Source of the DNA: Diplonema papillatum
Lineage: Eukaryota > Euglenozoa > Diplonemea > Diplonemida > Diplonemidae
Direction of reading: 5' to 3'
Assembly (NCBI GenBank): GCA_030068145.1
Contig: JAPJBO010000161.1
Coordinates: 248,001 to 312,000 of the forward strand
Length of the DNA stretch: 64,000 bases
The translations under genes and the position numbers were made by a program. Under the pieces are notes generated by a model. That model saw only the letters and a program-made list of their open reading frames with translations, ran no database searches and was not told the origin of the DNA. Below, piece after piece: positions 5,559 through 61,254 of the stretch; position 1 is the stretch's first letter, and every line of letters starts with the position of its first letter.

Positions 5559-5602
5559 GCCTTGCTGTCCGAATTGCCGTGGCTGCGTGCGGGAGGCCCG
5601 CC

Positions 5603-5840
5603 AGCTGACCTCAGCTGTTGAAGATCTACGCGCGAAACTTAAGCATATCACTCAGCGCAGGAAGAGAAAGCAACAGCGATGCTCCTAGTAACGGCGAGTG
5701 AACAGGGCAGAGCCCAAGCCTGAACCGGTGTTCTACGGATATCCGGAATGTGGCGCAAGATACAACTGGCGTCGAGGTAAGTCTCCTGGAATGGGGTATC
5801 CACAGAGGGTGAGAGTCCCGTATTTCCTCGACGAGCCATC
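5603..5840 (+). rRNA. LSU rRNA 5' domain I fragment (likely pseudogene)
   Basis: The sequence contains TGACCTCAG, ACTTAAGCATATCA, the GGAAGAGAAAGC block and CTAGTAACGGCGAGTGAACA, followed by GAGAGTCCCGTATTTCCTCG. This is the start of nuclear large-subunit rRNA. It ends abruptly where the CLASP-derived repeats begin. Confidence 0.9.
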
Positions 5841-6272
5841 GTCAACGACTTCAGCTATCCAGCACCAAAACTTTGAATCGCGCGACCGGGGGATGCGATG
5901 CTCTGCTACTCACATGGAATGTGATCAACTTCAACTGCGACGTTGTCAACAGCTTCAGCAGTCCAACATCCTGTCGTATCGAGCTGTGAGTCATCCCAAA
6001 CCGTGAAGCCGGCGATCACGCGACCTGGGATGCGATGCTCTGCTACTCACATGAAATGTGATCAACTTCAACTGCGACGTTGTCAACAGCTTCAGCAGTC
6101 CAACATCCTGTCGTATCGAGCTGTGAGTCATCCCAAACCGTGAACACGCGACCTGGGATGCGATGCTCTGCTACTCACATGAAATGTGATCAACTTCAAC
6201 TGCGACGTTGTCAACAGCTTCAGCAGTCCAACATCCTGTCGTGTCGAGCTGTGAGTCATCCCAAACCGTGAA
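5840..6272 (-). repeat. Tandem partial copies of the CLASP last exon
   Basis: Three units of about 130 bp and a shorter fragment follow the CLASP stop codon. Each carries a diverged version of the last-exon segment around GTGATCAACTTCAACTGCGA and the stop-codon context GATCACGCGACCTGGGATGC, so they derive from the gene's 3' end. They are identical to each other over most of their length but differ from the gene, so the array was amplified after the first copy diverged. Confidence 0.8.
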
Positions 6273-6280
6273 GCCGGCGA

Positions 6281-9200
6281 TCACGCGACCTGGGATGCGA
6301 TGTCGATGTCCGATTTTCCGTGTCTTCTGTTCACATATATTGTGATCAACTTCAACTGCGAGGTCGTCAACGGCTTAAGCAACCCAACGCACCGCGATCC
6401 CAAAGCCAAATACAAGGCCACGAAGCAGAAGACGGTGGCCTGCGTTCGGGGTTTAAACGGTAAAGCGTGTGCGAAGAGCGAGCTCGTATCAGGTATGCGC
6501 GCTCCTAAGTCTTTGGGCCGCACGCGTTCTCACACTGACGCACTGCGTTTCCACGCTGCGGTGTCCTGCCTTAGAAGCTGGAGTGAAAAAAAAAGGGTAC
6601 GTTTACACGCGTTCTGGCTGTAGCAGACTCACTTCTCGAATGAGCTTCTGCAATGAGCCGCAGGTCTCCCGATTGAGCAAGGTATCAGGGTTCTACCTGA
6701 CTTCTCTCTTTTAGCGTACGCACGCCTGGCTTTGTGATACCAGTACGCGGCCAACTATGGGTGGATCGCTTGAGCATCATCCATTTTCGGGACCGGTGCA
6801 TTCGGCAGGTGAGTTGTTACACACTCATTCTCGGATGCCGACTTCCATGGCCACCGTCCTGCTGTCAAGATGAACCGACACCCTTTGTGGGATCTGATGA
6901 GCGATCACTCGGACACCTTAAGTCAGCTCTCGGTTCATCCCGCGTTTCTTGTGTCCTTCCTTCCCTTTCCGATGATGATTACTTCGGATGGATTGGCGAA
7001 CTCGATTACCCAAGCCAAGATCTGAGTACAATGCCGAAGACTCAAGCCGAGACCGAGTGCGACAGAAGCTAGCTGTCAATGCCATATCTACTCGTACGGT
7101 GGAAGTGCATGTAAGTGCATGAAAGCGCATGTTAGTGCATGTAAGTGCATGTTAGTGCACGTTAGTGCATGTAAGTGCATGTACCTACATAATACCTGCA
7201 TACCCTAGGTGTAGCCATCAGAGGTTATACCTAGGGTGTGTAGGTGTACCTCACGAATCAGGAGGATCACGAGGTGTACTGACACGACCGCGTGATCTGG
7301 GCACGCAAAACATTCACTTAAAAAGACAGACAGTCCCCTACAACGGCACCATACTGAGGAGGGCCTACCGTAAGTGAGGTAAACAACGAAGGGAGGGGGA
7401 AACAGTGTACAGATTTTTTTGGAGCATTCCTGGGTACTAAATGACTATATCGTGAGTCATTCCTGTCAGACAGTCTGACCGTTCTGCCGTCTTTTGTGGC
7501 TGTTTTTTTTTAGAGTTAAAGTTCGCTTGAAATTCCGGGGTTTTAGGGTCTCCGTGTGACCGTTCAAGAAAGGGCTATGTGGCTGCGTGTTGTTTATTTA
7601 GTGCACGCTTTCGTTATGGGCTATGGCTAGCCATGTCCGGGACTGTTTGTGACCGACACCAAGTACATTCCTTCGTGGAGTGTAGTCTTGGGCCCCCCAC
7701 GTTCTACAAGTTTTTGGTGTTTGGATGGAGACTTTAAAACCCCGGAGTTTCAAGCGAACTTTTGTTTGTTGTGCGTGCCGGTTGATCGTTTTCCCACTTG
7801 TATTTACCCTGTGCGTATTCAGGTAAGGAATTCTGATCAACCACCAAAACACGCTGCCTACGTCTTTTTAGCCTGCACAATACATGATGAAGGGCAACCC
7901 ACAAGATTGTTAGTACTAAAAAGAATAGCCACACACCTTGCGAACTTCGGCTCGGTTGGAGAGAAACCCGTCGTAGAGGGACTGCACGAAGCCCGTTGCG
8001 ATGGCGAGGAGGTCATCCCCGTTGGCGCCCATGCGCCCGACGACCTTCTCGAGCAGCTCGAAGAGGAACGGGATTTCCTCGTTCTCCGACGTGGGCCCGC
8101 GGTTGTGCAGCTCGCTGCCCACGACGTGCGCGCAGTCCTTTTCGTCGGCTTGCATCACCAGCGTCTCGAGCACGACACCGGCGTGGTCGCTGACCTGTGA
8201 GTGTGCGGGGCCCTGTTACGACGATCCCCCACGTTTGCGACGGCACGTTTTCGTGTTTCGATCGAGGTTTGAGTGAGTAGGTCCGCGCAGTGTGAGGGTC
8301 TTCCAGGGTCCTTTAAGGGTCCCGGCGGTTTGGCAACACATTTTGCGGGCGTTTTATCAACCCACACCGGTGTGGATCAACCTGGGGGTTCCAAATGTTT
8401 TTGGGTTCCCTGTGTAGTCGGGCTGTTTTTTGTGGCTGGCCCCGGGCTGGGAAGGGATCACCTGGGAGTTTCTGCTCTTCGCATTGTCTGACGAGAACTG
8501 CCTAGAAGAAAGGGAGAAGTAAGAACACGTCTTTGTAACTGATATCACGAGCGCAAGCGAATGTTGAATGACTGCCTTAACCCAGGGACACGAGCTTGGC
8601 GGGGTTAGGGAGGGTGGGAAAACTTGACTGTTTCTTTGAAGCAACCACACCCTGAAGGCTGTGTGCATCTTACTGTTTCTCGGAGTGCCATGCCTGCGAA
8701 GAGTATGTGAGAGTTACTCATTTACCAACGCCTGTTTCGTCCATGCGACACCCTTGTTCACGAAAATATCACGCCGTAGCAGAACGACCACACCCTACCC
8801 AATCCCAAGCACCCCCTAAACGCGTTAGGGGACTTCACAAGGTTTCACAACGGAGTGACACAACACCCGAAACGAGCTGCACCCGCTCACTTTTCTCAAC
8901 ACCCCGCCATACTCAAGCCTCTACGGTCAACCGGAGACTTCAAAATACCGACCTTCTAATCCACAAATAACGCTATAAAATATCTTTGTGTTGCTGTCAG
9001 GGTGTGCTGCGTGCAGTGTCGTGATTGGGTACACCACTGTGACACCACCGGAAGAAAACACAGCCAGGTGGGAGGCAGGTAGGGCCTACCTGAACCTTTC
9101 CGCATAATTACTCAGGTAGCCTACCTGGCGGCCCTGGCACGACAACACTGGGCCGACCGGCTGACCGAATGGTCATTGTTGACCCAATATCACTGGTCAG

Positions 9201-11595
9201 CCGTACATTTTTCGAGACTGGAGGTCCTATGAACATGCAATGTGAATAGCCTCTATTCGAGCCAACCCGGCTTTTCTTGCAACAATTATGAAACCGTATT
9301 GTTTTTGGACTGGATAATATTGCGGATATAACTTTTCTCCCGCCTGCCAGTAGGCAGGGGCGTGGCAGAGTGAGCGGGTGACGGCCTTCAGGCCAGTAAG
9401 CCCGGGTTCGAACCCCGCTCACCGCACTTTTCCGGCCGACTGTTGTTTTCGAGATTTCGTACGTGCGCTCGGCTAAGGCCGGCGCGTGGCGAGACTGGAG
9501 GCAGCAGGTAAAGTTCGGGGCGAAGCTAAGTTCGGGCAATGCTAAGTTCTGGTGAAGCTAAGTTCGAGTGATGCTAAGTTCGGGCGTTGCTAAGTTCTGG
9601 TGCTAAGCGCTCAGGCTGCGCTGGTACTGAAAAAAGTTCGGGCACGAAGCGAAGTTCGGCCAGGGTGGTAAAGTCCGGGTGAAGTCAAGGTCGGTGCTCG
9701 TGCCCGGGGGGGGACACCCCCCCCGGACCCCCCCGACCCACCGAGTACGGGAAAGGTTTGGCGCTGGTACCCGGGGGGGACACCCCTCGGACCCACCGAG
9801 CACGGGTAAAGTTTGGCGCTCGTACCCGGGAGGCCCCGCCGCACCCTTGCGGCAGCCTTTTCCCGCCCGTCCCCCCCCCGCCGGCCCTCTCCCGGGGCGA
9901 CGGGGTGACCCAAATACCGCGAGATACTGAGAAACTCCGCAAAAAACGCAAATTTCGGGCACATTAGACCCCGGAACGCAGCAAACCTCGAAAACAATCC
10001 CCGACCGGAAAAATGTCACGGGCGGGGTTCGAACCCGGGCCGACCGGCCTGAAGGCCGGCGCCCGCTCACTCTGCCACCCCTGTGCATTTTCCCAGAAGG
10101 GGAAAAAGCTTGCTCTGAACTATTATCCAGTCCAAAAACAATACGGTTTCATAATTGTTGCAAGAAAAGCCGGGTTGGCTCGAATAGAGGCTATTCACAT
10201 TGCATGTTCATAGGACCTCCAGTCTCGAACGAGCCAACCCGGCTTTTCTTGCAACAATTATGAAACCGTATTGTTTTTGGACTGGATAATATTGCGGATA
10301 TAACTTTTCTCCCGCCTGCCAGTAGGCAGGGGCGTGGCAGAGTGAGCGGGTGACGGCCTTCAGGCCAGTAAGCCCGGGTTCGAACCCCGCTCACCGCACT
10401 TTTCCGGCCGACTGTTGTTTTCGAGATTTCTTGTGTTCCGGGGTCTAATGTGCCCGAAATTTGCGTTTTTTGCGAAGTTTCTCAGTATCTCGCGGTATTT
10501 GGGTCACCCCGTCGCCCCGAGGCCGGCGGGGGGGGGACGGGCGGGAAAAGGCTGCCCCAGGCCCCGTGCCAGGGGTCCTGGCGCCCCACCCGGGTACGAG
10601 CGCCAAACTTTACCCGTGCTCGGTGGGTCCGAGGGGTGTCCCACCCGGGTACCAGCGCCAAACTTTTCCCGTGCTCGGTGGGTCCGAGGGGTGTCCCCCC
10701 GGGTACCAGCGCCAAACTTTTCCCGTACTCGGTGGGTCGGGGGGTGTCCCCCCCCCGGGCACGAGCACCGACCTTGGCTTCACCCGGACTTTACCACCCT
10801 GGCTGAACTTCGCTTACCAGCGCAGCCTGACTCGGCCCTGAGCGCTTAGCACCAGAACTTAGCAACGCCCGAACTTAGCATCACTCGAACTTAGCATTGC
10901 CCGAACTTTACTGTTCCCCGAACTTTAACTGCTGCCTCCAGTCTCGCCACGCGCCGGCCTTAGCCGAGCGCACGTACTTGTTGACCCAATATGACTGGTC
11001 AGCCGTACATTTTTGTTGACCCAATATGACTGGTCAGCCGTACATTTTTGTACCCAAAAATGACCAGTCATAAATGACAGGTCAGTGTTCAGCGATGGAT
11101 TTTTTTGTCGTAAATGACCGGTGTTTTTTACTTAGCGCGAGCACTGGATATTGCGACTTTGCGTATTTTGCAGAATATCGCGACCATGGTGCGTGCGGGT
11201 GCATAATACTCAGCTCGACCCTTAGATGCCGCTGTCGTCGAAGAGGGACGAGTTAGAGTGCAGGGACCATCTCCTCGGGGAGTTTCCGGTCTTCTCACTT
11301 CTCTTCGCGCTGCTACGGCGGGCGTAAGTCGCTCCGGAGGCGCGCTGCAGGTTGCGGCTCTGCTACAGGCACCGGAGTTGGTGCTGCAGCGGGCGCTCCC
11401 CCCCCAGGGTTTTACCCGGTCTGTCATTTTTCCAGGCCTTCTTGCATGTTGTGCCCGCAATGAAGTGTCAGCTTGGAACTGTTACGAACAAGAGGAATCC
11501 AACTGGTTAATTAACATTTCGCTTCATCACAGCGGTGGCGAGTGGAATGTGACTTCTGCCCAGTGCCCTGAATGTCAACGCTGAGAGAGTCAGGT

Positions 11596-11655
<60 letters not shown>

Positions 11656-14600
11656 TTCTAATTAAAGACGCGCATGACCCGTTCCAGCTTCAGTCCAGTT
11701 CAACCACATTATTCCAAATACGGTAATCTAAAGCCAGTAGTAGTAGTAGTAGTAGTTTGAACTTGTTATGCAGCAACAATCAATAGTAGTAGTATGTGTC
11801 GTCTGCCGAAGCCGCCGGAGACAGCAGGCGCAGGGGGCAGGCTCTAAAGCCAGAAGAAAAGCAAACCTTCGGATCGCTGTCGCAGTAAGCGGCGAGGACA
11901 GCTTTGAAGAGGTTGGTGGTGGCTTGGGTCGTGTTCGGGGTTGTTTTCTTCGATGCGAGCCGCGCAGCGATGCGGAGGCCGACGTCCATGGCCGAGAGCC
12001 TGAGCTCGGTCGGGTGGTCGTCGTCGGCGAAGAGGTGCAGGAGCGAGAAGGACGAGTGCGACGGCAGCGCGAAGCTCGACGGCGCCGCGAGGTATTTGTG
12101 CAGCTCGCCCGCCGGCGGCCACGGCGCAGTCTCCGCGAGGATCCTCCGACACGCCCCGATTTTGTCGGCCGCCGCGCTGCCAGCCGACGTCAGGGTCGCC
12201 CACGGGCCTGCCTGTGAACTGGACCCGTGGCTCAGCGACGAAACAACCCGCTTCACCCCAACCGCCTTCTTCTTCCCGTCCCCCGGCGCCGTCTTCACCT
12301 TCCCAGCGCCCGCCACCGCTCGTCCTCCCGACGCCACCCGCACGCAACTCGGGCTCTTCACGACCGTTCGCGCCGGCAGGTCCTTCAACCCGTCGGCGCT
12401 CAGCTGCTTCTCCGTGTTGTTCCGCCACTGCGCTACGGCCACCTCAACATCGCTCTTCACCTCGACGAACGCGGGCGTGCTCGTCCGCGTGACCGCCATC
12501 GCCGGCGACGGCTTCGCACGCACCCTCCCCTCCGCCGCCTTCAGCTCCCCGTTCAGTCCGGGCACCGTCTTCAGCAGGCACTGCTTGATGCTGGCCTGGT
12601 CGCTGAGAGACAAGGTGAGCACCTGCACGGAAATAAAGGAGGGGTTTTCCCTTTATCAGGCTTCAGAAATCAAAAGCAGAGGAGCGAAGAGATGAAAAGC
12701 TCTCGCTTTTTGTGGTTTCCCACAGGGCACAGGTTGGTGGCCTTCGATCATTTTACTAGTTTGTGAGGTCCAGCTTCCCCGTGTGGGGTGCGTGTTGGTT
12801 GCAAGGTGGCCCAGTTTGCTGGGCATCAGCGTACTGCTGGTATTCAGAAGGCTGGGATAAACCCCTCGCATCAAGACCTGTGCTCTATGAACGGGATGAT
12901 TAAATGTCGTACCCAATTCTATTTCGATTTTCGTCAGGTTTAGCCATCGGTTGGTCCGAAAATGCTTAGATTCGGAGGTTTTGAGGACGCGATTTGGTGG
13001 ATTGAACGCGCGAAATATGCAACGTCCAACGAAGAAGCGCTAATACTAGATGCGTGACTTCTTGTGAAAACACTATGGCCAGGCGGGTTGGGGTGCAGGG
13101 TGCAGGGTTCCCTATCCGGAACCGTGATTGTAAAGAGTTGCCGAAACGGCCCCTCCTGCTTACCGGCTCTTTTTCACGTGGGAGTACAAAAAAGGGGGCA
13201 AAACGGTGGGGTCTGCGTTTTGTCAGTTTTTGCTTCCCTCTCCAACCTCGCTTTTGGCGAGTGAAATCTGAGGTGTTCGCTCAGAAACGAAAGGATTCCA
13301 ATTTTACGCGCCGTAGGCGCTCAAGTAAGCTTGTTAGGTGTGTACGTGCGTGAACCATTCGCCCACGCGCTGCTACGGGATTTAGTGTGTTTAGGCAGCA
13401 ACTCTGCCTTTATTTTCGAGTCTAGGTTTCGAGATCTAGGTTTCGAGACGGAGAGAACGGAAGTGGGAGAGAGGTGGAGGGGTGGTGCAAGAACGTGCTT
13501 GGAATGGATATGTGCTCAACGCTGCACTGGTCCCGTCTGCGCCATGTTTCGGTCCTTTCAGCGAGAGGTGGAGGGAGGGGTGGAGGGGGGTGTTGCAAGA
13601 ACGTGCTTGGAATGGGTATGTGCTCAACACGTCACTGGTCCCATCTGCGCCGTGTTTCGGTCCTTTAAGCCACGGACACATACGGCCATCATCAGCGCGG
13701 AACCTGAGTGTCTGCAGACAGGACTGCGGTGTGAGTCTGGTTTGTCAGGCGGCTGTTCGTAGCTCGTCACAGCCAGGACCACCCGTGCTACTAGAGGAGA
13801 GGGGGGTGGAGGGGGGTGGAGGGGGGTGGGGGCGGGCGTCCGGACCACCCATCGAGATCGTCTGCATGCGGAAGAACGTAGAACGTCGGGCGGCGACAGA
13901 GCGAGCAAGGTAAAAGACGTGAAAGACGAGTAGAGTGTGCTTGCGTGCAACCCCCGGCACACAGACGCACGCACTCACGAAAGAGAGAGATAGTGAGAGA
14001 GAAGGCGAGTCAGAGTGCAGGGACCATCTCTCCGGGGAGTTTCCGGTCCGCCTCACTACCACCCCCAGCAGGGAAGTACATCGCTTTGCATCCCTGCCCC
14101 ACCAACGAGGAGGGGAGGCATACAGTCTCGGTGCTTTGTTGTTGATTGTGGTGGGCGGCGCTTCTACGGCGCGCTCCTTTATCCTGCGAATGATGGAGAA
14201 GACGGAAGGGGGGCGACAAGGGAAGAGCGTCGGGAGACGGGATGATGATGTAGACGTAAAACACAACGGGGCAAGTGTGCGGGGCGCATCCTTTTGGTTG
14301 TGCCAAAAAGAAGGAAGAGGAAGGGTTGGAGGGGGTGGGGGAGAAAAACGGGATCTGGTGAAGAAACGTGATTAGAATGGTATGTGCTCCCCTTTCGGTT
14401 GTCCACGGACACAAAGGGGGCGGACCTGTTGCGTGCGACCGTGCCGTACGAATAGGGCATTGCGAGTCTGGATATCAAAGCGGGAGGGGGGGTGGAGGAA
14501 GGGTGGAACGAAAGGGAAGGAGAACAAGAGTTGGGGGATGGGAAAGAAAACGGAGGCGTACCTCTTCACAGAATACGTTCGAGCTGGAGCCGTGGAGGAC

Positions 14601-28884: not shown

Positions 28885-29365
28885 CTCTTGGGTGGATCGT
28901 CCATTCAAGGGACAGGTGCATCCGGCATGCGTGAGTTGTTGCACTCGTTGTCGGATGCCGACCCCCCACCCTTCCATGGCCACTTACACCTTGCCTCAGG
29001 ACAGACTGACCCACGTCCAATTGCTGTTGACACGGAAACCTTCTCCACTTCGGCCTTCCATGTTCTCCATTGAATATTCGCTACTACAACCAAGATCTGC
29101 CCTCATCCACGCTCCATCGAGGCTCACGCCAACGACTTCGCGGTGTGGACCACGCACTCCTACGCATGGCTTTGTGATACCAGTACGCGGCCAGCTATGG
29201 AGCATCATCCATTTTCGGGACCGGTGCATCCGGCATGCGTGAGTTGTTACACACTCATTATCGGATGCCGACTTCCATGGCCACCGTCCTGCTGTCAAGA
29301 TGAACCGACGCCCTTTGTGGGATCTGATGAGCGATCAGTCGGACACCTCAAGTCAGCTCTCGGTT
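28885..29365 (-). rRNA. Two LSU rRNA domain III fragments in tandem
   Basis: 28885-29000 and 29165-29365 each carry, in reverse complement, the domain III block (CATGGAAGTCGG, AACAACTCACGCATGCCGGA, GAAAATGGATGATG). The second copy extends into the domain II side (GATCGCTCATCAGATCCCAC). They are separated by sequence with no recognised content. Confidence 0.8.
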
Positions 29366-35711: not shown

Positions 35712-36055
35712 GGAAGGTGTCCGAGTGATCGCTCATCAGATCCCACAAAGGGTGTCGGTTCATCTTGACAGCGGGACTGGCAACGCGGGATTAACCGAGA
35801 GCTGACTTAAGGTGTCCGAGTGATCGCTCATCAGATCCCACAAAGGTGCCGGTTCATCTTGACAGCAGGACTGGCGACGCGGGATTAACCGAGAGCTGAC
35901 TTAACAAAGGGTGTCGGTTCATCTTGACAGCAGGACGGTGGCCAAGTCGGCATCCGATAACAAGAGTGCAACTCACCTGCCGAAAGCACCGGTCCCGAAA
36001 ATGGATGATGCCTAAGCGATCCACCCATGGTCGCGTACTGGTATCACAAAGCCAT
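35712..36055 (+). rRNA. LSU rRNA domain II-III fragment with internal triplication
   Basis: The block GTGTCCGAGTGATCGCTCAT to GCGGGATTAACCGAGAGCTG is present in repeated form, then the domain III part (AACTCACCTGCCGAAAGCAC, GAAAATGGATGATGC). Local tandem duplication inside an rRNA piece argues for decay rather than function. Confidence 0.85.
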
Positions 36056-36070
36056 GCGCGTACGGGACCC

Positions 36071-47500: not shown

Positions 47501-47974
47501 GGGGGGGGGCAGCGCTCTTGTTAAGGATCAGCCACTTTGGCCGGATGGCCGGATAAACCAGACCCCCCCCTCCCCCCCCCTCTACAGTGCAGTTGCCTTG
47601 GAGGCTGGGTGGTCAAATTCTCTAAGGTGAAATGGTCAAAATTCCCTGCCAAAAGTGGGCCCACAAAAATTTTCCAAAGTGTGGTATTTGGGGTATTTGG
47701 GGCAAAAAAAAAATTTTTTTTTCTGACCGCCCACCGTGGTGACCACCTTAGAGTGTGACAGGTAGCGTCTCCCCCCTCCACAGTGAAAATAGCCTATGAG
47801 GGGGGGGGGGGGGGGGGGATTGCAAGAACGTGCTTGGAATGGGTATGTGCTCAACACCGCCTGGTCCCGTCCGCGCCGTGTTTCGGTCCTTTAAGCACGG
47901 ACGGGGGGGGGGGGGGGGGGGGGGTCCTGCCGGCTGATGGATGGGGGACTGGTTCTTAACAACATGCCCTGGGG

Positions 47975-48052
47975 GGGAAAATCTTAGTTTCGTGTTCAGG
48001 CGCTACTTGCCTCTAAGTGTTTGATGCTAGCATCAAGTCTTCTTCGCGGAAT
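47975..48052 (+). repeat. Three-hairpin repeat at the 3' end of the Penelope-like element
   Basis: GGGGGGGAAAATCTTAGTTT, a GGCGC...GCC-type first hairpin and TTGATGCTAGCATCAA precede AAGTCTTCTTCGCGGAA. It lies between the ORF stop and the left terminal repeat of the element, in reverse orientation to the ORF. Confidence 0.6.
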
Positions 48053-48469
48053 GCAGAGTCTTTTTTCTTCTTTTTTTCTTTTTTTCCGTTTTCTGTTTTT
48101 TCTGTTCTTTCTTTCGTTGTCGCCAATTTCTTTTTTCTCCTTTTACTTCTAATTTTAACTTTAATTTTCTTTACCATGGTATTTTTGGACTTTCTGGTGC
48201 CGTAGAGTAGTTCTTCTTTCTCTATGCCGCCCACGTCGATGTTCGTTTAGCAGCGGCTGCCGAATCATGCCGTGGCACCGTCCTTTTGTGCGTCTGCCTT
48301 GCTGAAGAAGTGTGGGAAAGGAGTCCAGGACTCCGTGGTTTGAAACCATGTGCTATGGCTTCACTTCCTCCTCCCTTCGTCCGTTTTTCTTTAAAAAAAG
48401 GGGTTTACAAATTGGGTTGTGGCTCGTAACCAACCGCCACGGGGCACTACTTCCACCAGGTGAAAGTGT

Positions 48470-51400
48470 TTACGCTTTCTCGAGAGAGATGACGTAGCCA
48501 TTGGTTGTGAATCTCCTGGCACATTCCTCCCATGAGAGTACGGATACTTGCTGGTCGTCGTAGCATACCCATTCATCGTCTTCCTTTAACACGGTATAGT
48601 AATGACCTGCCGTTGCTCTTCCGGTGTGGATAATGAAGCCTTTTACCGTGTAGGAGTCTTCACCGATCAGTATGGTTTGTCGGATCGGGGTGCGGGCTGG
48701 TATTTTTATTTCTTCGCGTGTTTTTTTCGATAGCTGTGCTCGTTGCAGTGTTACATCCATTTGCTTTGGAAATGTGTAATCTTCCTTCGTGGATCCAACG
48801 GTCTTTTTGTTACAGGTGCTACAGGGGAAGTCGTCCACTTTGGTTGCTCTCTTGTTTTGCACTTTCTTTATCAGATCCTCAACTGACTCGGTGTAGGGCT
48901 TCTCCCTGTTTTTGAGTTCAAGCATCAGGAACGGTTCTGACGCCGGCGATGCTCGTGAAGACTCTTTGCATATTGTGCACGTTGTCAAACGGGAGTATGT
49001 CACCGTAGCTTGGTCGTCGTCGTCGCCCGTCACGCAGGAGCGTATCCACGTCAGCAGTTCGTGCACGTCCCGATGCGCGGAGTCGTCTGCCGTCGTGTTG
49101 AACACGAGGCTCCGGAGTGTGGCCATTGTACCGTGGATGTTTTGGCCTGCGTCGAAATCCGTGAACAGCCTCTGCACCATCTGCTGGTTGGTGTCCAGGT
49201 GCGTTAGGTTTGCGAGTTGTAGTCGGAAGGACGTCCTTCGCGCCAGGAACTGCACGCTGGCGGCGAAGAAACATGAGTTGCGAATGTTCGTTATGCCGTT
49301 GCGTCCAGGTGGGTTTGTTGGTTTCGTCGCAGGGTGCGTAGTGCTGGTGGGTTCGGATTTGTGCGGCGACGTAGACTGCGGCGAGGTTCTCCCGGGTGGA
49401 TGTTTCGGTGAGCCGTCGGGCGGTTGCGGCGTGCGGATGCTGATGTACGGTTTTTCCTCGTTGGTCGGGCGACCTTCGTCATAGGCCTTTCCGACGAAGT
49501 GGTGAAACCGTGACAGCACTCGCGCATCTAATTCGTACTTTCCGTACGTTTGTGCCACGAACGTGTCGAACGTGCGCCGGAGTTCCCGTCCAGAGAATCC
49601 TCGGTTCCGAAGTCTGTAGTACACCTTCATGACCTCGACCTTCAGATCTGGCATGTTGTTGCAGATGCGCGCTGCTCGGATCAGTGCGCCTTTGAAGATC
49701 GAGGTTCCGGTGTTTCGTGGTACCGTGGATTCGACGTGGGTGTACTTTATCGGATTCCAGGGGAATTCCTCACCCTTGTCCAGGACAGACATCCGAATGA
49801 AGTCCGTCTTGTCATTCCTCTCCATCCGGATCCGCATCCCCAAAAAGACTACGTCGTCGACACCTTTCGACGTTTCACCATACTCCATGCCGTAGATATC
49901 TTCCGGCGGTGGTCGAACACCCCAGGTCAGGAAGTCGTCAATGAATCTGACGCTGTCGGCGTGATTCCTGGCCTCTTCTTGCAATCCTTTCGCGACCAGG
50001 CCGTCGATGTACTGCTTTTCGCACCAGTAGCAGTATAAGTTGGCGAGGTCTGGGCTTGCATTGCCGCCCATGGGGATTCCGGATACCTGCTGGTAGCATG
50101 TTCCACCGTTGGTGACGAAGGTGTTACCAACAATGAAGCTGACCAGTGCTCGAATCTCTTCGACATTGTAGGAGGTCGTGTTCGATTCGTCTGGTTTCCC
50201 AAATTCGAAACGGTGTTTGGCGCGCTGGGCTTCTACGTTCGCTCCTTTTTCGGACTTCATGTACTCGAAAGCCTCTGCAACCGCAGACATAACATAGTCA
50301 ACAATCTGCTTCTGCGGAATCTTCGTGTACATCTCTTTGAAGTCGAAGGTTCGTGGCGCTTTTTTGCGCAGTCGAGCGTAGTTCGTCTTTATGTGTACTG
50401 CTACGTCATCGACCGACTCCACGACGAAGAAACGACGTATCCCCGTTTGCGAAAACGCCGCTTCGTCCTTGCTTCGGAGCGTTGCTAGCACCAGCTTCAG
50501 CAAACCGGAGGCTTCTTGGTGTGCAGGGGTTGTGGATGCACGTGTCTTCATTCGTTTCTTGTCGCGGCCTTTTTCGTCTCGGTCCTTCTGTTCGTCTTTC
50601 TTCTCAACGTTTCCTTTCTCCGACACGCCGGCAATGTACCGCATCCGTGGTTCGGGTTTGTGGAGCTTCGGGATGCCGTAAAGGTACGGTAGGTTGTCGG
50701 CGTGTACGAACTTGTGTGACTTGTTGAAGTCACGGTGTCGTTCGAGCACGTCATCAATCGACTCGCCAACTTCCTGGTACGTTGAGCTCTGTTGTAATTC
50801 GTCCCGTAAGAGCTCCTTGTATTTTTCCTTGCAGATAAACCCGAAGTCATGGGACGTCTTATCTACAGGGAGAAACACGAGGTGCTCCTGGAGCTTCTTC
50901 AGGGTGCGTAAGGCGTCTCGGAGTTGAGGTTCGTCGGTGTGCGCGTTGAGAGTTCCAAGGACGGCGTCGAACTCTTCGACCAGAGTTGTTGAAAATCTGG
51001 TCTTCTCGTCCTCGCTCGCCTTCGGGAAATTCGAGTTCACGAATTCTTCGACGTCGTGTCTTATCGAGTCGTACATAGTCATCGGACTACTCGCGACCCG
51101 GTATTTTCGTCCTTTTCGAAAAAGTGAAAGGAGGGCTTCGTCAGTCTTCAGATCCGTTGCAAGTCCTAAAGCGTGTCCACCAAGATCCGGGCGGTGTGGT
51201 GTCATATGCTGCATGCATGGGCAAACCGAACCTGAGCTAGTCGGTTGATTCGCTTCGTAACTTACTTCGGTGACGTTGCTGACGAGGGTTACCAAAGGTG
51301 GCTTCAGGCGGTTGCTCACCATGAGGTTTTTGAGGACGGCCGGGTTGGGGCACGTTTCGCGAACCCGTGCGCGTGACAGGACGCCGGCAATTGCTGTCCG

Positions 51401-52981
51401 GTCTTGTGCCGGGTGATGATGCGTCAGCTTGAAATACCGTCGTGGGGGGGCCGCCGGTTTCTCGGTTCTGTTGCGGATGCGCGCACTGAGGAGTCGTTCA
51501 AGGATTCGTACTTTGTCTGTGACGTCTTTTCCTTGAACGAAGGTTCTCAGCCACGTGCGTAGGCGGAGGGCGCGATTGGGATGCCATGTTGACATGTCGT
51601 AGGTTCCCAGTCGGTCCTGTGGGAGTGTCAACAGGTGGTCCAACTGTTTCCTCAACCCAGAACAGAAGCCCGGGGAGGTGTCAATGTGGAGTTCGTCGTT
51701 TTCCATGCGGTGCCAGACGCTGCCGTCGGTGCGTCGTTTGCGGAGGCGTTGCGGTGGACGTTGCCTCCTCTTCTTCTTTGCAGCCTTGTTGTTGACCCTC
51801 TCTCCCTGTCGCCGATTCGTCATGTTCAATGGCGGGTTTAGCCATTTGATCCAAAACTCTTCGATTGGGAGAGCCACGCGCGCGAAGTCAGCGGGCTGTG
51901 CGTACAGCCGTTCCGGAACATTCTGTATCGGACACGCGTAGAGCTTCCGGCCTCGCTTTCGTAATTGTTGCGATACACGGTTGCCCTTTGAGTTCCGATT
52001 TTCCCAGTGCTTGCTGTTTCGCACCTCGGCCGTCTTCGACGTCTGACCCACGTAGAGGACGGTGCCCCCTTCGTTCAGAAGTACGTAGATCACTCCCGTC
52101 GTGCTGTCGGCGACGTCGCTTCGGTCGGTTCCGCATTTGTTCCGCCCATTCGACACTTTTGTGCCGTATCGCTTCCAGAAGATTTCGATCGCGCTTTTTC
52201 TTCGGCTTCCGTGATCGTCGTCGTCGTCGTCAGGGTGGCGGCGCGTGTGGACAAAAGCGGCGAGGAAACGAGTGTCAGATTTGGGCCGGTTTGTTTTTTG
52301 TTTTCGCCGTTCTTTTCTGTTGGCGCGTGCACTTTTATTGTTTTTTTGGTTTTTTTGGTTTTTTTCGTTTTGTTTTTTTGCCTCAGAGTCACGTGGTCGT
52401 TCTTCCGATTTTTCTTGGCGGCGTTTTCGTGCTTGTGCTCTGGGTTTTTCTTTTTGCGGCCTCTTTTGTTCGCGCTCCTTTTGTCGATCGTTGTGAACCG
52501 GGTGGCTAGTCGTTCCACGGTTCCTCTGTTCTGGGGCTGCTTGGGGTCTGGAAAGACCTTTCTCGCAGGGCTTCTTTGTTTTGGGGGCCGCTTGGGGTCT
52601 GGGGTGACCTTTGTCGCAGCGTTTCTCTTCCTTTCCCTCTCTCCGTGTCGCTGGGAAACGACCAACAAGTTCAGGTCCTTCCTGGGAGTGGCGCTGTCGG
52701 AAAATAAGGCATTCGTCATCTGTCCGAATCGGATATCCGACGACTACCTTAGCGTCTGTTCCGTCGAGTTCATCATCAAAGTAGTTAACTTTCATGTTAT
52801 CGGACTCGGTGGTGGTAGACGACGCAGCACTCCGCCTCGAATGGTTATGCTTCCTAGGCACTTTCAATGGCGATTTAGAGACGGGTGTGGGATTTTTTAT
52901 TTTGGATCTATCAACGTGTCGGGCTGACAGGTCCAAAAGCGGTCCTGCGGCGTTTTTTAGGGCCACACGGCAAGGGGCCAT
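48470..52981 (-). CDS. Penelope-like retroelement protein: GIY-YIG nuclease + reverse transcriptase + ubiquitin-specific protease
   Basis: A single 1503-codon ORF without introns. Residues 1-290 are basic and low-complexity (KKxxE-type). Residues about 293-385 hold a GIY-YIG nuclease: GVIYVL, LYVGQT, an arginine, and the late EEFWIKWLNPPLN with the family Glu and Asn. Around 585 is a CPC motif followed by LFRKGRKYR, as in PLEs with an N-terminal GIY-YIG (Naiad/Chlamys group). The reverse transcriptase (about 695-1060) shows LPVDKTSHDFG, YLYGIPKLHKPEPRMRYIAG, motif A FDFKEMYTKIP, SGIPMGGNASPDLANLY and the catalytic FIDD. After a Pro/Thr linker, residues about 1228-1500 form a C19 ubiquitin protease: Cys box GITNIRNSCFFAASVQFL, two CxxC zinc ligands, His box GHYYTVLKEDDEWVCYDD. 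All catalytic positions seem present. Nuclease and RT act in target-primed integration; the protease role is unknown. Confidence 0.92.
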   Translation of the reverse strand: MAPCRVALKNAAGPLLDLSARHVDRSKIKNPTPVSKSPLKVPRKHNHSRRSAASSTTTESDNMKVNYFDDELDGTDAKVVVGYPIRTDDECLIFRQRHSQEGPELVGRFPATRREGKEEKRCDKGHPRPQAAPKTKKPCEKGLSRPQAAPEQRNRGTTSHPVHNDRQKEREQKRPQKEKPRAQARKRRQEKSEERPRDSEAKKQNEKNQKNQKNNKSARANRKERRKQKTNRPKSDTRFLAAFVHTRRHPDDDDDDHGSRRKSAIEIFWKRYGTKVSNGRNKCGTDRSDVADSTTGVIYVLLNEGGTVLYVGQTSKTAEVRNSKHWENRNSKGNRVSQQLRKRGRKLYACPIQNVPERLYAQPADFARVALPIEEFWIKWLNPPLNMTNRRQGERVNNKAAKKKRRQRPPQRLRKRRTDGSVWHRMENDELHIDTSPGFCSGLRKQLDHLLTLPQDRLGTYDMSTWHPNRALRLRTWLRTFVQGKDVTDKVRILERLLSARIRNRTEKPAAPPRRYFKLTHHHPAQDRTAIAGVLSRARVRETCPNPAVLKNLMVSNRLKPPLVTLVSNVTEVSYEANQPTSSGSVCPCMQHMTPHRPDLGGHALGLATDLKTDEALLSLFRKGRKYRVASSPMTMYDSIRHDVEEFVNSNFPKASEDEKTRFSTTLVEEFDAVLGTLNAHTDEPQLRDALRTLKKLQEHLVFLPVDKTSHDFGFICKEKYKELLRDELQQSSTYQEVGESIDDVLERHRDFNKSHKFVHADNLPYLYGIPKLHKPEPRMRYIAGVSEKGNVEKKDEQKDRDEKGRDKKRMKTRASTTPAHQEASGLLKLVLATLRSKDEAAFSQTGIRRFFVVESVDDVAVHIKTNYARLRKKAPRTFDFKEMYTKIPQKQIVDYVMSAVAEAFEYMKSEKGANVEAQRAKHRFEFGKPDESNTTSYNVEEIRALVSFIVGNTFVTNGGTCYQQVSGIPMGGNASPDLANLYCYWCEKQYIDGLVAKGLQEEARNHADSVRFIDDFLTWGVRPPPEDIYGMEYGETSKGVDDVVFLGMRIRMERNDKTDFIRMSVLDKGEEFPWNPIKYTHVESTVPRNTGTSIFKGALIRAARICNNMPDLKVEVMKVYYRLRNRGFSGRELRRTFDTFVAQTYGKYELDARVLSRFHHFVGKAYDEGRPTNEEKPYISIRTPQPPDGSPKHPPGRTSPQSTSPHKSEPTSTTHPATKPTNPPGRNGITNIRNSCFFAASVQFLARRTSFRLQLANLTHLDTNQQMVQRLFTDFDAGQNIHGTMATLRSLVFNTTADDSAHRDVHELLTWIRSCVTGDDDDQATVTYSRLTTCTICKESSRASPASEPFLMLELKNREKPYTESVEDLIKKVQNKRATKVDDFPCSTCNKKTVGSTKEDYTFPKQMDVTLQRAQLSKKTREEIKIPARTPIRQTILIGEDSYTVKGFIIHTGRATAGHYYTVLKEDDEWVCYDDQQVSVLSWEECARRFTTNGYVISLEKA

Positions 52982-53196
52982 CGTGTGGTTACAACATCCT
53001 TAACAAGATGCCTGGGGGGGGGGGGGGTCGAATAATAACAGTTATTTGACACACGTCTGGTTGTCTAAAAACACTGCCACTATTTGATCCTGCTACTGTT
53101 CGGCTACCCGGAACTTTTTTTAGTATTCGACAAACCGAATAAGAACACAGGTGTTACTATTCAAACCCCTCCCTTTACAAAAACAAAAGTACGTAC

Positions 53197-53592
53197 CAAG
53201 TCGATGACCCCGTCCTTGAACTCATCTTCGGTGTCGTGGGCGATGCGTTCTTCGGTTGCAAGGCCTTCGACGAGTAGCTCGAGAGAAAGCCGGTCGCACG
53301 GCTTGGTGTTCAGGATCTGGATCTTTTCGGCAGGGGTCAGGTACAGCTCGTCGCCCGCCGGCGTGCGGTACGCCTTGCACGCGACGTCGAGGGCCGTGAG
53401 GAAGTTGTGCACGTCCTGCCGCCGCGTGAACTTCTCGGGCAGCAGCACGCTGCGGAGCAGCCCCTTCTCGAACTCGAAAACGCTCTCGCTCGGCAGGATC
53501 TGCTCGCAGCGGCGCGCCTCGCGCCAGTGGGCCAGCGCTTCGTGCACCTCGAAGTTGCTCAACTGGCACGAGCTGGCCTCGAGAACCTGCAT
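53197..53592 (-). CDS. RPC9: RNA polymerase III subunit RPC9 (CRCP/Rpc17), first exon
   Basis: The exon begins at ATG 53592 and ends in phase 0 at 53197 before donor GTACGT, giving 132 residues. It has the RPC9 pattern: start MQVLEASSCQLSNFEV, a helical middle with DVHNFLTALD, the motif LTPAEKIQILNTKP, then the LELLVEGLATEERI helix. RPC9 pairs with RPC8 to form the Pol III stalk (Rpb4/7-like). The family is about 140-150 residues, so only a short C-terminal exon is missing. It was not found, and the Penelope-like element lies immediately downstream where it would be expected. The 1.2 kb upstream is a tandem array made of pieces of this exon. Confidence 0.9.
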
Positions 53593-53689: not shown

Positions 53690-54910
53690 TGACACGGCTT
53701 GCTTCAAGACTGGACAGGGATAGCCCCTAACTTAACACAATTAGCCCCACAGGATATGGCATCGCTGACTTCGTGCACCTCGAGGTTGCACGAGCTAACC
53801 TGTATCGTGCCAACACTCCCCCCTCGGCTCGGTACCTGCAGCGGGGAAGGTTCTCAGGTTTTAGCACGACAAGATTTGACATGGCTGGCTTCATTGGACA
53901 CACGGCTTGGTGTTCAGGATATGGATCCGTTCGGCGGGGTCAGGTAAAGCTCGTCACCCGCCGGCGTGGTACGCCTTGCACGCGCCTCGAGAACCTGCAT
54001 CGTGGCAACACACCACCCCCGCGGCCCCTCCTGCAGCGGGGAAGGTTCTCAGGTTTTAGCACGACAAGATTTGACATGGCTGGCTTCATTTGACACACGG
54101 CTTGGTGTTCAGGATATGGATCCGTTCGGCGGGGTCAGGTAAAGCTCGTCACCCGCCGGCGTGGTACGCCTTGCACGCGCCTCGAGAACCTGCATCGTGG
54201 CAACACACCACCCCCGCGGCCCCTCGGCTCGGTACCTGCAGCGGGGAAGGTTCTCAGGTTTTAACACGCCGACATTTGACATGGCTGGCTTCATTTGACA
54301 CACGGCTTGGTGTTCAGGATATGGATCCGTTCGGCGGGGTCAGGTACAGCTCGTCACCCGCCGGCGTGGTACGCCTTGCACGCGCCTCGAGAACCTGCAT
54401 CGTGGCAACACACCACCCCCGCGGCCCCTCCTGCAGCGGGGAAGGTTCTCAGGTTTTAACACGCCGACATTTGACATGGCTGGCTTCATTTGACACACGG
54501 CTTGGTGTTCAGGATATGGATCCGTTCGGCGGGGTCAGGTAAAGCTCGTCACCCGCCGGCGTGGTACGCCTTGCACGCGCCTCGAGAACCTGCATCGTGG
54601 CAACACACCACCCCCGCGGCCCCTCCTGCAGCGGGGAAGGTTCTCAGGTTTTAACACGCCGACATTTGACATGGCTGGCTTCAATTGTCACGGCTTGCCT
54701 CAAGACTGGCCCCCCCAAACTTGACACGATTAGCCTCGGGATATGGCATGGCTGACCTCGTGCGCCTCGAAGTTGTTTAACAACTGGCACGAGCTGGCTT
54801 CGAGAACCCAGCAAGATTTGACATGGCTGGCTTCCATTGACCCGGCCTGCCTCAGAATTGAACGCGGCTGGCCTCAAGATTCGACGAGGTTGGCACACCC
54901 GCACGTTCTG
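53690..54910 (-). repeat. Tandem array of internally deleted RPC9 exon copies
   Basis: At least four units spaced 195-206 bp apart (landmark GTCAGGTAAAGCTCGTCACC at 53939, 54134, 54340 and 54535) fuse the middle of RPC9 exon 1 directly to its start codon region, deleting what lies between. Unit ends carry GACATTTGACATGGCTGGCT. A further diverged piece near 54755-54815 keeps the segment encoding the LSNFEV start. Confidence 0.85.
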
Positions 54911-60704: not shown

Positions 60705-60796
60705 CTGCGTTCGTTTGTTTTTTTTTTTACATGAGCACGTGTCGAACGGACATGCGGGTCATGTGGGGAGTTTGGCTGGGGCGGCACATCTGCTTC

Positions 60797-61085
60797 ACAT
60801 AACCGCAGGTGTCCTAAGGCAAGCTCAGCGGGAACAGAAATCTCGCGTAGAGCATAAGGGTAAAAGCTTGCTCGATACACGATCTTCAGTACCGATCCTC
60901 GGTGTGAAAGCATGGCCTAACGATCCTTTGGTCTCGCTTCATGTTCAAGGGGCGAAGCCGGATAACTGGCTTGTGGCAGCCAAGCGTTCATAGCGACGTT
61001 GCTTTTTAATCATTCGTTGTCAGCTCTTCCTAAATTAGACAAGCAGATGTTCACCCACTAACAGGGAACGTGAGCTGGGTCTACC
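60797..61085 (+). rRNA. LSU rRNA domain V (peptidyl-transferase centre) fragment, altered
   Basis: It starts at GCAGGTGTCCTAAGG and runs through AACTGGCTTGTGGCAGCCAA, GCGTTCATAGCGACGTTGCT and TTCACCCACTAACAGGGAAC to GTGAGCTGGGT. The near-invariant ACAGGGATAACTGG is changed to AGCCGGATAACTGG and the following loop has several substitutions, so this copy is probably not functional. Confidence 0.9.
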
Positions 61086-61254
61086 TCTGCACGACAAATC
61101 ACACAAACACAACAGGTCAAAGTGCGAGTCCACTGTGGTACACTGAGCCAGCCACCGAAACTGCAGCTCGATACCATCTGAGCCTGCTGTCTGGCATCTT
61201 GGTCACAGTCCTACTTGTATATCTCGATTAGTCTTCCGATGGGGTGGCCATCAG

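Follow-up and report, generated by a model that had tools for sequence, protein, structure and literature searches.

Can a retroelement carry a ubiquitin-specific protease (USP) of its own? The question is raised by a 64,000-nucleotide stretch of the Diplonema papillatum genome (contig JAPJBO010000161.1, positions 248,001 to 312,000; hereafter the window), in which one long open frame occupies 48470..52981 of the minus strand. A sequence-only reading had proposed that this frame fuses a GIY-YIG nuclease, a Penelope-type reverse transcriptase (RT) and a USP. Profile searches, motif alignments and copy comparison show a protein composed of a predicted endonuclease, a CxC linker, an RT and a USP. 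By its anatomy the encoding element is a Chlamys-like Penelope-like element (PLE) of the N-terminal GIY-YIG type, and related families carry either a USP or an OTU protease in the same position.

Domain layout of the open frame

The frame was translated without a single internal stop over its 1503 codons, and all of the motifs listed in the sequence-only reading (NSCFF, GHYYTVL, YDD, CxxC and FIDD) were present in the translation. All features of the element described here lie on the minus strand. Translation probably starts at Met63 (window position 52795), giving a predicted coding part of 1441 amino acids at 48470-52795. This methionine is the likelier start because the stops of copies L019, L021, L027 and L028 fall within codons 1 to 25. 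Ratios of nonsynonymous to synonymous divergence (dN/dS) were calculated for six pairs among copies L010, L019, L027 and L028; they are approximate, dS being above 1 in many comparisons. Residues 1-62 are under little constraint by this measure (0.556-1.363).

The C-terminal domain was matched by the Pfam UCH profile (PF00443, family C19) over residues 1229-1497 (48491..49297) at E 9.4e-16, scoring 58.6 bits against a cut-off of 23.9 and covering profile positions 2-251 of 254. The USP part searched alone gave E 8.6e-17. Profile searching had been suggested as a check that might return no USP hit; a clear USP match was obtained. A four-row USP profile retrieved 79 PDB sequences at E <= 0.01, with USP21 at the top (7.6e-9), and 60/60 of those listed are named as ubiquitin or ubiquitin-like (Ubl) hydrolases. 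The domain contains the Cys box NIRNSCFFAASVQFL, the His box AGHYYTVL, YDD and two CxxC pairs. Its catalytic and zinc-ligand residues are intact by sequence and alignment, with the catalytic Cys codon (residue 1237) at 49271..49273, the His codon (1460) at 48602..48604 and the Asp codon (1475) at 48557..48559. A single-sequence AlphaFold2 model had a mean predicted local distance difference test score of 36.8, too low for the fold to be read. Cys and His boxes, zinc CxxC pairs and catalytic Asp are shared with cellular USPs such as USP21, USP15 and USP36; unlike these, the element USP is fused to a GIY-YIG domain and an RT.

The GIY-YIG assignment also held, with PF01541 over its cut-off (26.5 bits versus 22.6) at residues 296-383 (51833..52096; E 8.3e-6, or 1.1e-7 when residues 286-600 were searched alone). 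The CxC motif of the following linker reads CPC (51215..51223). The RT region (residues 601-1190, 49412..51181) contains the motifs FDFKEMYTKIP, GIPMGGNASPDLANLYCY and RFIDDFL, with FIDD of motif C at 49934..49945, and the Asp residues of motifs A and C are invariant across the eight families described below. The RT with FIDD proposed at the outset is thus present by its motifs, and the profile matches are weak: RVT_1 at residues 874-1018 (E 0.043, 14 bits against a cut-off of 29.6) and TIGR04416 at 0.001, far under its cut-off. Stretches resembling the DK and PKLHK hallmarks of PLEs were recognized in the RT by eye. A Pro/Thr-rich, weakly constrained linker (49301..49411; dN/dS 0.306-0.969 in four computable pairs) joins the RT to the USP.

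Copies, element anatomy and selection

The 271-Mb assembly containing the window (2910 contigs) was searched with the window protein, and the best 31 of 9549 first-look candidates were scored; all 31 matched. There are thus at least 31 genome matches, 20 of them at 99-100% identity, among which 15, including the window copy, are full-length (residues 1-1503) and free of stops. The remaining matches are less similar, broken or partial. The sequence-only reading had held that USP-less copies, cleanly joined inside the linker, would point to a chance fusion or to read-through into a host gene. No such copy was found: 28 of 30 fetched loci span the USP, and the other two (L025 and L026) end at contig ends. 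The catalytic Cys and Asp and the four zinc Cys are conserved in 28/28 USP-spanning copies and the catalytic His in 27/28. At L017 the open match stops at residue 1461, with the DNA continuing beyond. The copies lie on many contigs, in mostly different flanks.

A USP-less fragment of another kind was seen at L053 (C667:44300-49800). Here an L027-type element retains its N-terminal part and breaks off within the RT near residue 668, not in the linker; beyond the break lies different sequence holding a 549-aa frame of its own. The same 609-aa frame as that of L053 occurs at eight places among the GIY-YIG matches listed, of which L053 was read. Fragments of this type may be carried by another repeat.

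Homology to other copies places the window element at about 47972..52999, 5'-truncated relative to full elements. Its 3' pseudo-long terminal repeat (pseudo-LTR), recognized by comparison with copies, spans about 432 bp (47972..48403) and ends in ATTTTCCCCCC; the USP lies inside the element, upstream of this repeat and of the 3' end. The full copy L010 measures 6287 bp, with a 437-bp 5' pseudo-LTR (229-665) 99.3% identical to the 3' one (6079-6515), and head-to-tail tandems repeating every 5850 bp were found on C2819 and C61. A second subfamily (L028, L029, L030 and L032) has copies 99.7-99.95% identical and 388-bp pseudo-LTRs, those of L032 being 99.7% identical to each other; L028 and L029 show 71% identity to the window protein. 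Three aligned GIY-YIG matches on C510, spaced by 5726 bp, have the score and frame length of the second subfamily (among the matches listed). Multi-copy loci and element anatomy together support the earlier proposal that the USP is part of a Penelope-like element.

Element 3' ends read ATTTTCCCCC(C) and more (C5 or longer), followed by mostly different flanks, with one flank common to L010 and L012. The 5' ends lie behind runs of about ten C in L006, L010, L013 and L015, behind C5 in L014 and behind a G run in L021. In the second subfamily, C runs precede L032 and L033 (the latter at the locus of L028), L029 follows C5 close to a long C run, and L030 follows a G run. The window copy has a poly-C tract in its 5' flank (53014..53027). 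These boundaries are uncertain by about five C, as the element itself has CCCCC at the junction inside tandems. The copies are young, and their sequences and flanks indicate a multi-copy, recently active element with insertion at poly-C tracts.

Window 47930-47977 and 52999-53027 and the 5' flank of L027 resemble one another, each with a poly-C run and then AGGCATCTTGTTAAG or a close variant; a version thus stands on both sides of the window copy. Such flanks may reflect either a repeat that the element favors as its target or a target-site duplication with imperfect copies. Within L027, positions 7273-7356 are matched on both strands by plant microRNA-precursor models below their gathering score, as a palindromic repeat would give.

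Among the dN/dS pairs, the USP gave values of 0.095-0.148 in the five diverged pairs and 0.242 in the closest (L010/L019), alongside 0.060-0.106 for the RT and 0.045-0.165 for the GIY-YIG domain (six pairs each). The USP value for U5/U6 was 0.119. The USP is under purifying selection, with dN/dS of about 0.1 between diverged subfamilies.

Chlamys and Naiad PLEs are biased toward insertion at microsatellites and are not known to have a canonical hammerhead ribozyme; the Chlamys GIY-YIG is not known to carry a CCHH motif, and some Chlamys elements carry PHD fingers. A CxC motif between endonuclease and RT was reportedly described by Craig et al. in 2021 for PLEs with an N-terminal endonuclease. 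The elements studied here share with Chlamys and Naiad the N-terminal GIY-YIG, the CxC linker, the RT, the single open frame, pseudo-LTRs, tandems, a microsatellite-like target and the lack of a hammerhead match, and appear to differ from them in carrying a C-terminal deubiquitinase (USP or OTU). No hammerhead was detected (Rfam, E <= 1) on L004, L010, L021, L027 and L028, five of 30 loci. In a 115-column alignment of the GIY-YIG domain from four copies of the window group, one Cys and one His are invariant and the CCHH motif is absent. This absence fits Chlamys rather than Naiad. Searched against the PDB, the window-group profiles of RT and GIY-YIG retrieved nothing at E <= 10, and a wider profile gave only BstEII (E 0.32) and an intron-associated endonuclease (0.83), neither significant.

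USP or OTU behind the RT of related families

The genome was also searched with the GIY-YIG profile PF01541 (at least 127 matches; best 150 of 225 candidates scored) and the UCH profile PF00443 (best 149 of 935 candidates scored), and one member was read per long-frame class from the two listings: L034 (1457 aa), L035 (2210), L036 (1562), L037 (1544) and L038 (1585, via the UCH listing). Adding the window family, L027 and L028 brings the total to eight families, which fall into four groups: window/L027/L028; L035; L036/L038; and L034/L037. GIY-YIG, CxC and RT are present in 8/8, the linker motif being CPC in all but L035, which has CAC. The GIY-YIG exceeds the Pfam cut-off in L028, L034, L035, L036 and L037 and was assigned by alignment in L038. 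RT identity between groups is 34-41% among seven families, L038 not among them. In the 2210-aa class, L054 and L035 (C1:770250-779800) open with Tyr/Pro-rich repeats before the GIY-YIG, as seen by eye.

A deubiquitinase domain follows the RT in all eight families read, a USP in six and an OTU in two, a result that goes beyond the sequence-only reading. Pfam identified UCH in the window family, L027, L028, L035 and L036. The USP of L038 was assigned by the genome UCH search and its 60% identity to the L036 USP; the two proteins are 66.6% identical over nearly their whole length. Cys and His boxes are also conserved in the other USP families. OTU was identified in L034 (E 1.7e-5, 25.8 bits) and L037 (1e-8, 36.2 bits) against a cut-off of 23.3. 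The catalytic motifs of OTU proteases are DGNC and HY-like; L034 has GDGNCLF and QWHF, and L037 has GNGNCLF and QVHY. Between the two OTU domains the proportions of nonsynonymous and synonymous differences are 0.393 and 0.846, the latter saturated. A C-x2-C-x19-H-x3-C finger stands near the C-terminus in five of the eight families, three with a USP (L035, L036 and L038) and two with an OTU (L034 and L037). In the window group the protein ends with the USP, and there is no terminal finger.

That one slot holds either of two non-homologous folds suggests that ubiquitin removal as such, rather than a particular protease fold, would be the function kept by selection, deubiquitination being the most economical function to unite them. 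In an RT tree of eight rows (seven families and L019), which is unrooted and has long branches, a single branch divides the OTU families from the USP families.

To place the USPs, 14 USP-like sequences of the same genome were fetched and 12 compared, L051 (element-like) and L052 (long) being omitted from the tree. Element USPs are about equally distant from these 12 and from the USPs of other element groups, with roughly 21-30% identity to the genome sequences among matches listed of more than 85 residues, and no close relative that could mark a host donor was found among the 12. No relatives were found in a viral contig collection (four queries, one scan each), nor in a genome contig collection by two RT-alignment scans that did not include the USP, with no eukaryote collection covered.

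Judged by eye on span, score or sequence, about 113 of the 149 UCH rows scored look element-borne and about 36 do not. The 34 rows that precede C3:546019 include one element-like row (C9, L051), by eye and with few rows read. From C3:546019 on, 112 of 115 rows have the span and score of the L036 and L038 families (about 774-801 bases, 76.5-85.9 bits) and three do not. Most detectable USP copies of the genome may therefore belong to elements.

Proposed role of the deubiquitinase and its precedents

The explanation we put forward, with the chances about evenly balanced, is a recently active Chlamys-like GIY-YIG PLE at poly-C tracts whose tethered deubiquitinase would free the element's own protein or ribonucleoprotein of ubiquitin. 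The nuclease would nick the target DNA, and the RT would copy the element RNA at the nick. The tethered deubiquitinase would take ubiquitin off the element's own protein or ribonucleoprotein, and possibly off neighbors at the nick. The complex might thereby be spared ubiquitin-proteasome unloading or degradation until copying is finished. We prefer self-protection to an action on chromatin because it needs only a tether in cis and explains the exchangeable folds. The sequence-only reading had suggested ubiquitin removal from the element itself, from host chromatin or from repair factors, or escape from proteasomal decay; these functions stay proposals. More tentatively, and with somewhat less confidence, deubiquitination could be an obligate retrotransposition step in one PLE lineage: every family would keep a catalytic deubiquitinase, with the slot refilled by one or the other of two non-homologous enzymes (USP or OTU) between a common RT and, in five of the eight families, a common terminal zinc finger. 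These would then be, to our knowledge, the first retroelements shown with their own USP, engaged in an arms race with the host over ubiquitin-dependent control of reverse transcription.

Several points weigh against these readings. Deubiquitinase activity and substrate are predicted, and our choice of self-protection over chromatin expresses a preference rather than a result. Pfam detects the RT below its cut-off only, the GIY-YIG of L027 falls just under (21.5 bits versus 22.6, E 3e-4), and the probable placement of the RT in the PLE clade comes from motifs and element anatomy. The eight families amount to four groups only, and with one member read per long-frame class among the matches listed a family without a deubiquitinase is possible. 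L037 has NGNC, with Asn at the usual OTU Asp position (DGNC), and copy L016 has Arg for the catalytic His plus two stops. The USPs may have been acquired once or more than once: a single element-USP clade is compatible with the data (approximately unbiased test, p-AU 0.544), and the free tree divides the element USPs with weak support. The RT tree, having no outgroup, gives no polarity between USP and OTU.

The same anatomy could serve a deubiquitinase whose targets are host proteins where the element integrates, such as ubiquitinated histones, PCNA or repair factors, thereby opening chromatin or steering repair. In favor, the USP is joined to a DNA nuclease and an RT, the OTU and ULP1 domains of transposases have been proposed to act on ubiquitin/SUMO control of DNA repair (PMC2836005), and USP21, USP15 and USP36 are among the PDB matches of the USP profile. 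That likeness is of the common USP core, however, and no guide to substrate, and none of the proteins scanned with Pfam showed a histone-binding domain. Nothing distinguishes action on host targets from self-protection, and we regard it as the strongest competitor, albeit a less likely one. We give a slim chance to the idea that the USP or OTU removes another modifier (SUMO, NEDD8 or ISG15-like) or is mainly a ubiquitin-binding targeting module. USP18, a named Ubl hydrolase, is among the PDB matches, and the Asn of L037 at the expected OTU Asp would fit; yet two folds with ubiquitin as their usual common substrate favor ubiquitin, and a pure binder would not need the Cys and Asp kept in every USP-spanning copy, the almost constant His or the boxes of other USP families.

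A processing protease that cuts the element's own polyprotein appears very improbable. Polyprotein proteases of retroelements often do so, but USPs and OTUs cleave after ubiquitin or a Ubl, and this candidate was rejected on finding no ubiquitin-like domain by Pfam in the frames scanned. Least probable of all is a chance fusion, a read-through into a host USP or a passively captured, functionless domain. This was the main alternative of the sequence-only reading, and the genome does have other USP-like sequences, namely the scored UCH rows outside the element classes; it was rejected on the multi-copy USP, the purifying selection between diverged subfamilies and the loci spanning the USP, all but the two cut by contig ends. 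The USP also lies before the 3' pseudo-LTR, and other families have a USP too. Chance fusion is contradicted unless the multi-copy result is an assembly artefact, against which stand the many contigs with mostly different flanks.

Ubiquitin and SUMO proteases are known on transposons; unusual here is the exchange of USP and OTU in one slot. The Ginger1 DNA transposons carry a C-terminal OTU or ULP1 as alternative proteases in one superfamily slot; unlike the present elements, these are cut-and-paste DNA transposons, and their protease is an OTU or ULP1 rather than a USP (PMC2836005). The same paper names a Trichomonas protein, XP_001314237.1 (transposase_11 + Peptidase C19), which likewise places C19 on a mobile-element enzyme; it differs in being a DNA transposase with no RT or GIY-YIG named. 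The non-LTR elements NeSL and Utopia-1_TSP have an N-terminal ULP1-like protease (PMC4640811), Helentrons an OTU-like protease (PMC6431247), Helinoto Helitron2 deubiquitinase-like domains (from a title in the references of PMC7599744) and Mutator elements a ULP1 protease. NeSL, Utopia-1_TSP, Helentrons and Helinoto thus also bear ubiquitin/SUMO proteases, in other replication classes, folds or positions. Chlamys PLEs occur in Ectocarpus as well (PMC12477816), and the terms ubiquitin, USP and OTU occur 0 times in the main text of that paper. No USP on a Penelope-like element is named in the literature searched (titles and abstract starts), which did not cover the central PLE paper of Craig et al. 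(2021), so priority is uncertain.

Why several classes of mobile element carry ubiquitin/SUMO proteases remains a puzzle, for which one genome here offers eight related families, young intact copies and two folds. Two folds in the same slot make the role of deubiquitination in retrotransposition testable. The RTs of PLEs are relatives of telomerase RT, and the findings widen the cargo range of these telomerase-related retroelements, whose mechanism is little known.

Elsewhere in the window, six fragments match large-subunit ribosomal RNA (rRNA) models on both strands (5585-5886, 6721-6927, 11312-11689, 29189-29347, 35712-36063 and 60711-61094), three of which overlap in model position. They are probably dispersed rRNA-derived repeats or pieces of rRNA pseudogenes. 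A 195-bp tandem array (53797-54691) adjoins a frame with an Rpb4 match (53161-53592) and includes repeated stretches of that frame's sequence.

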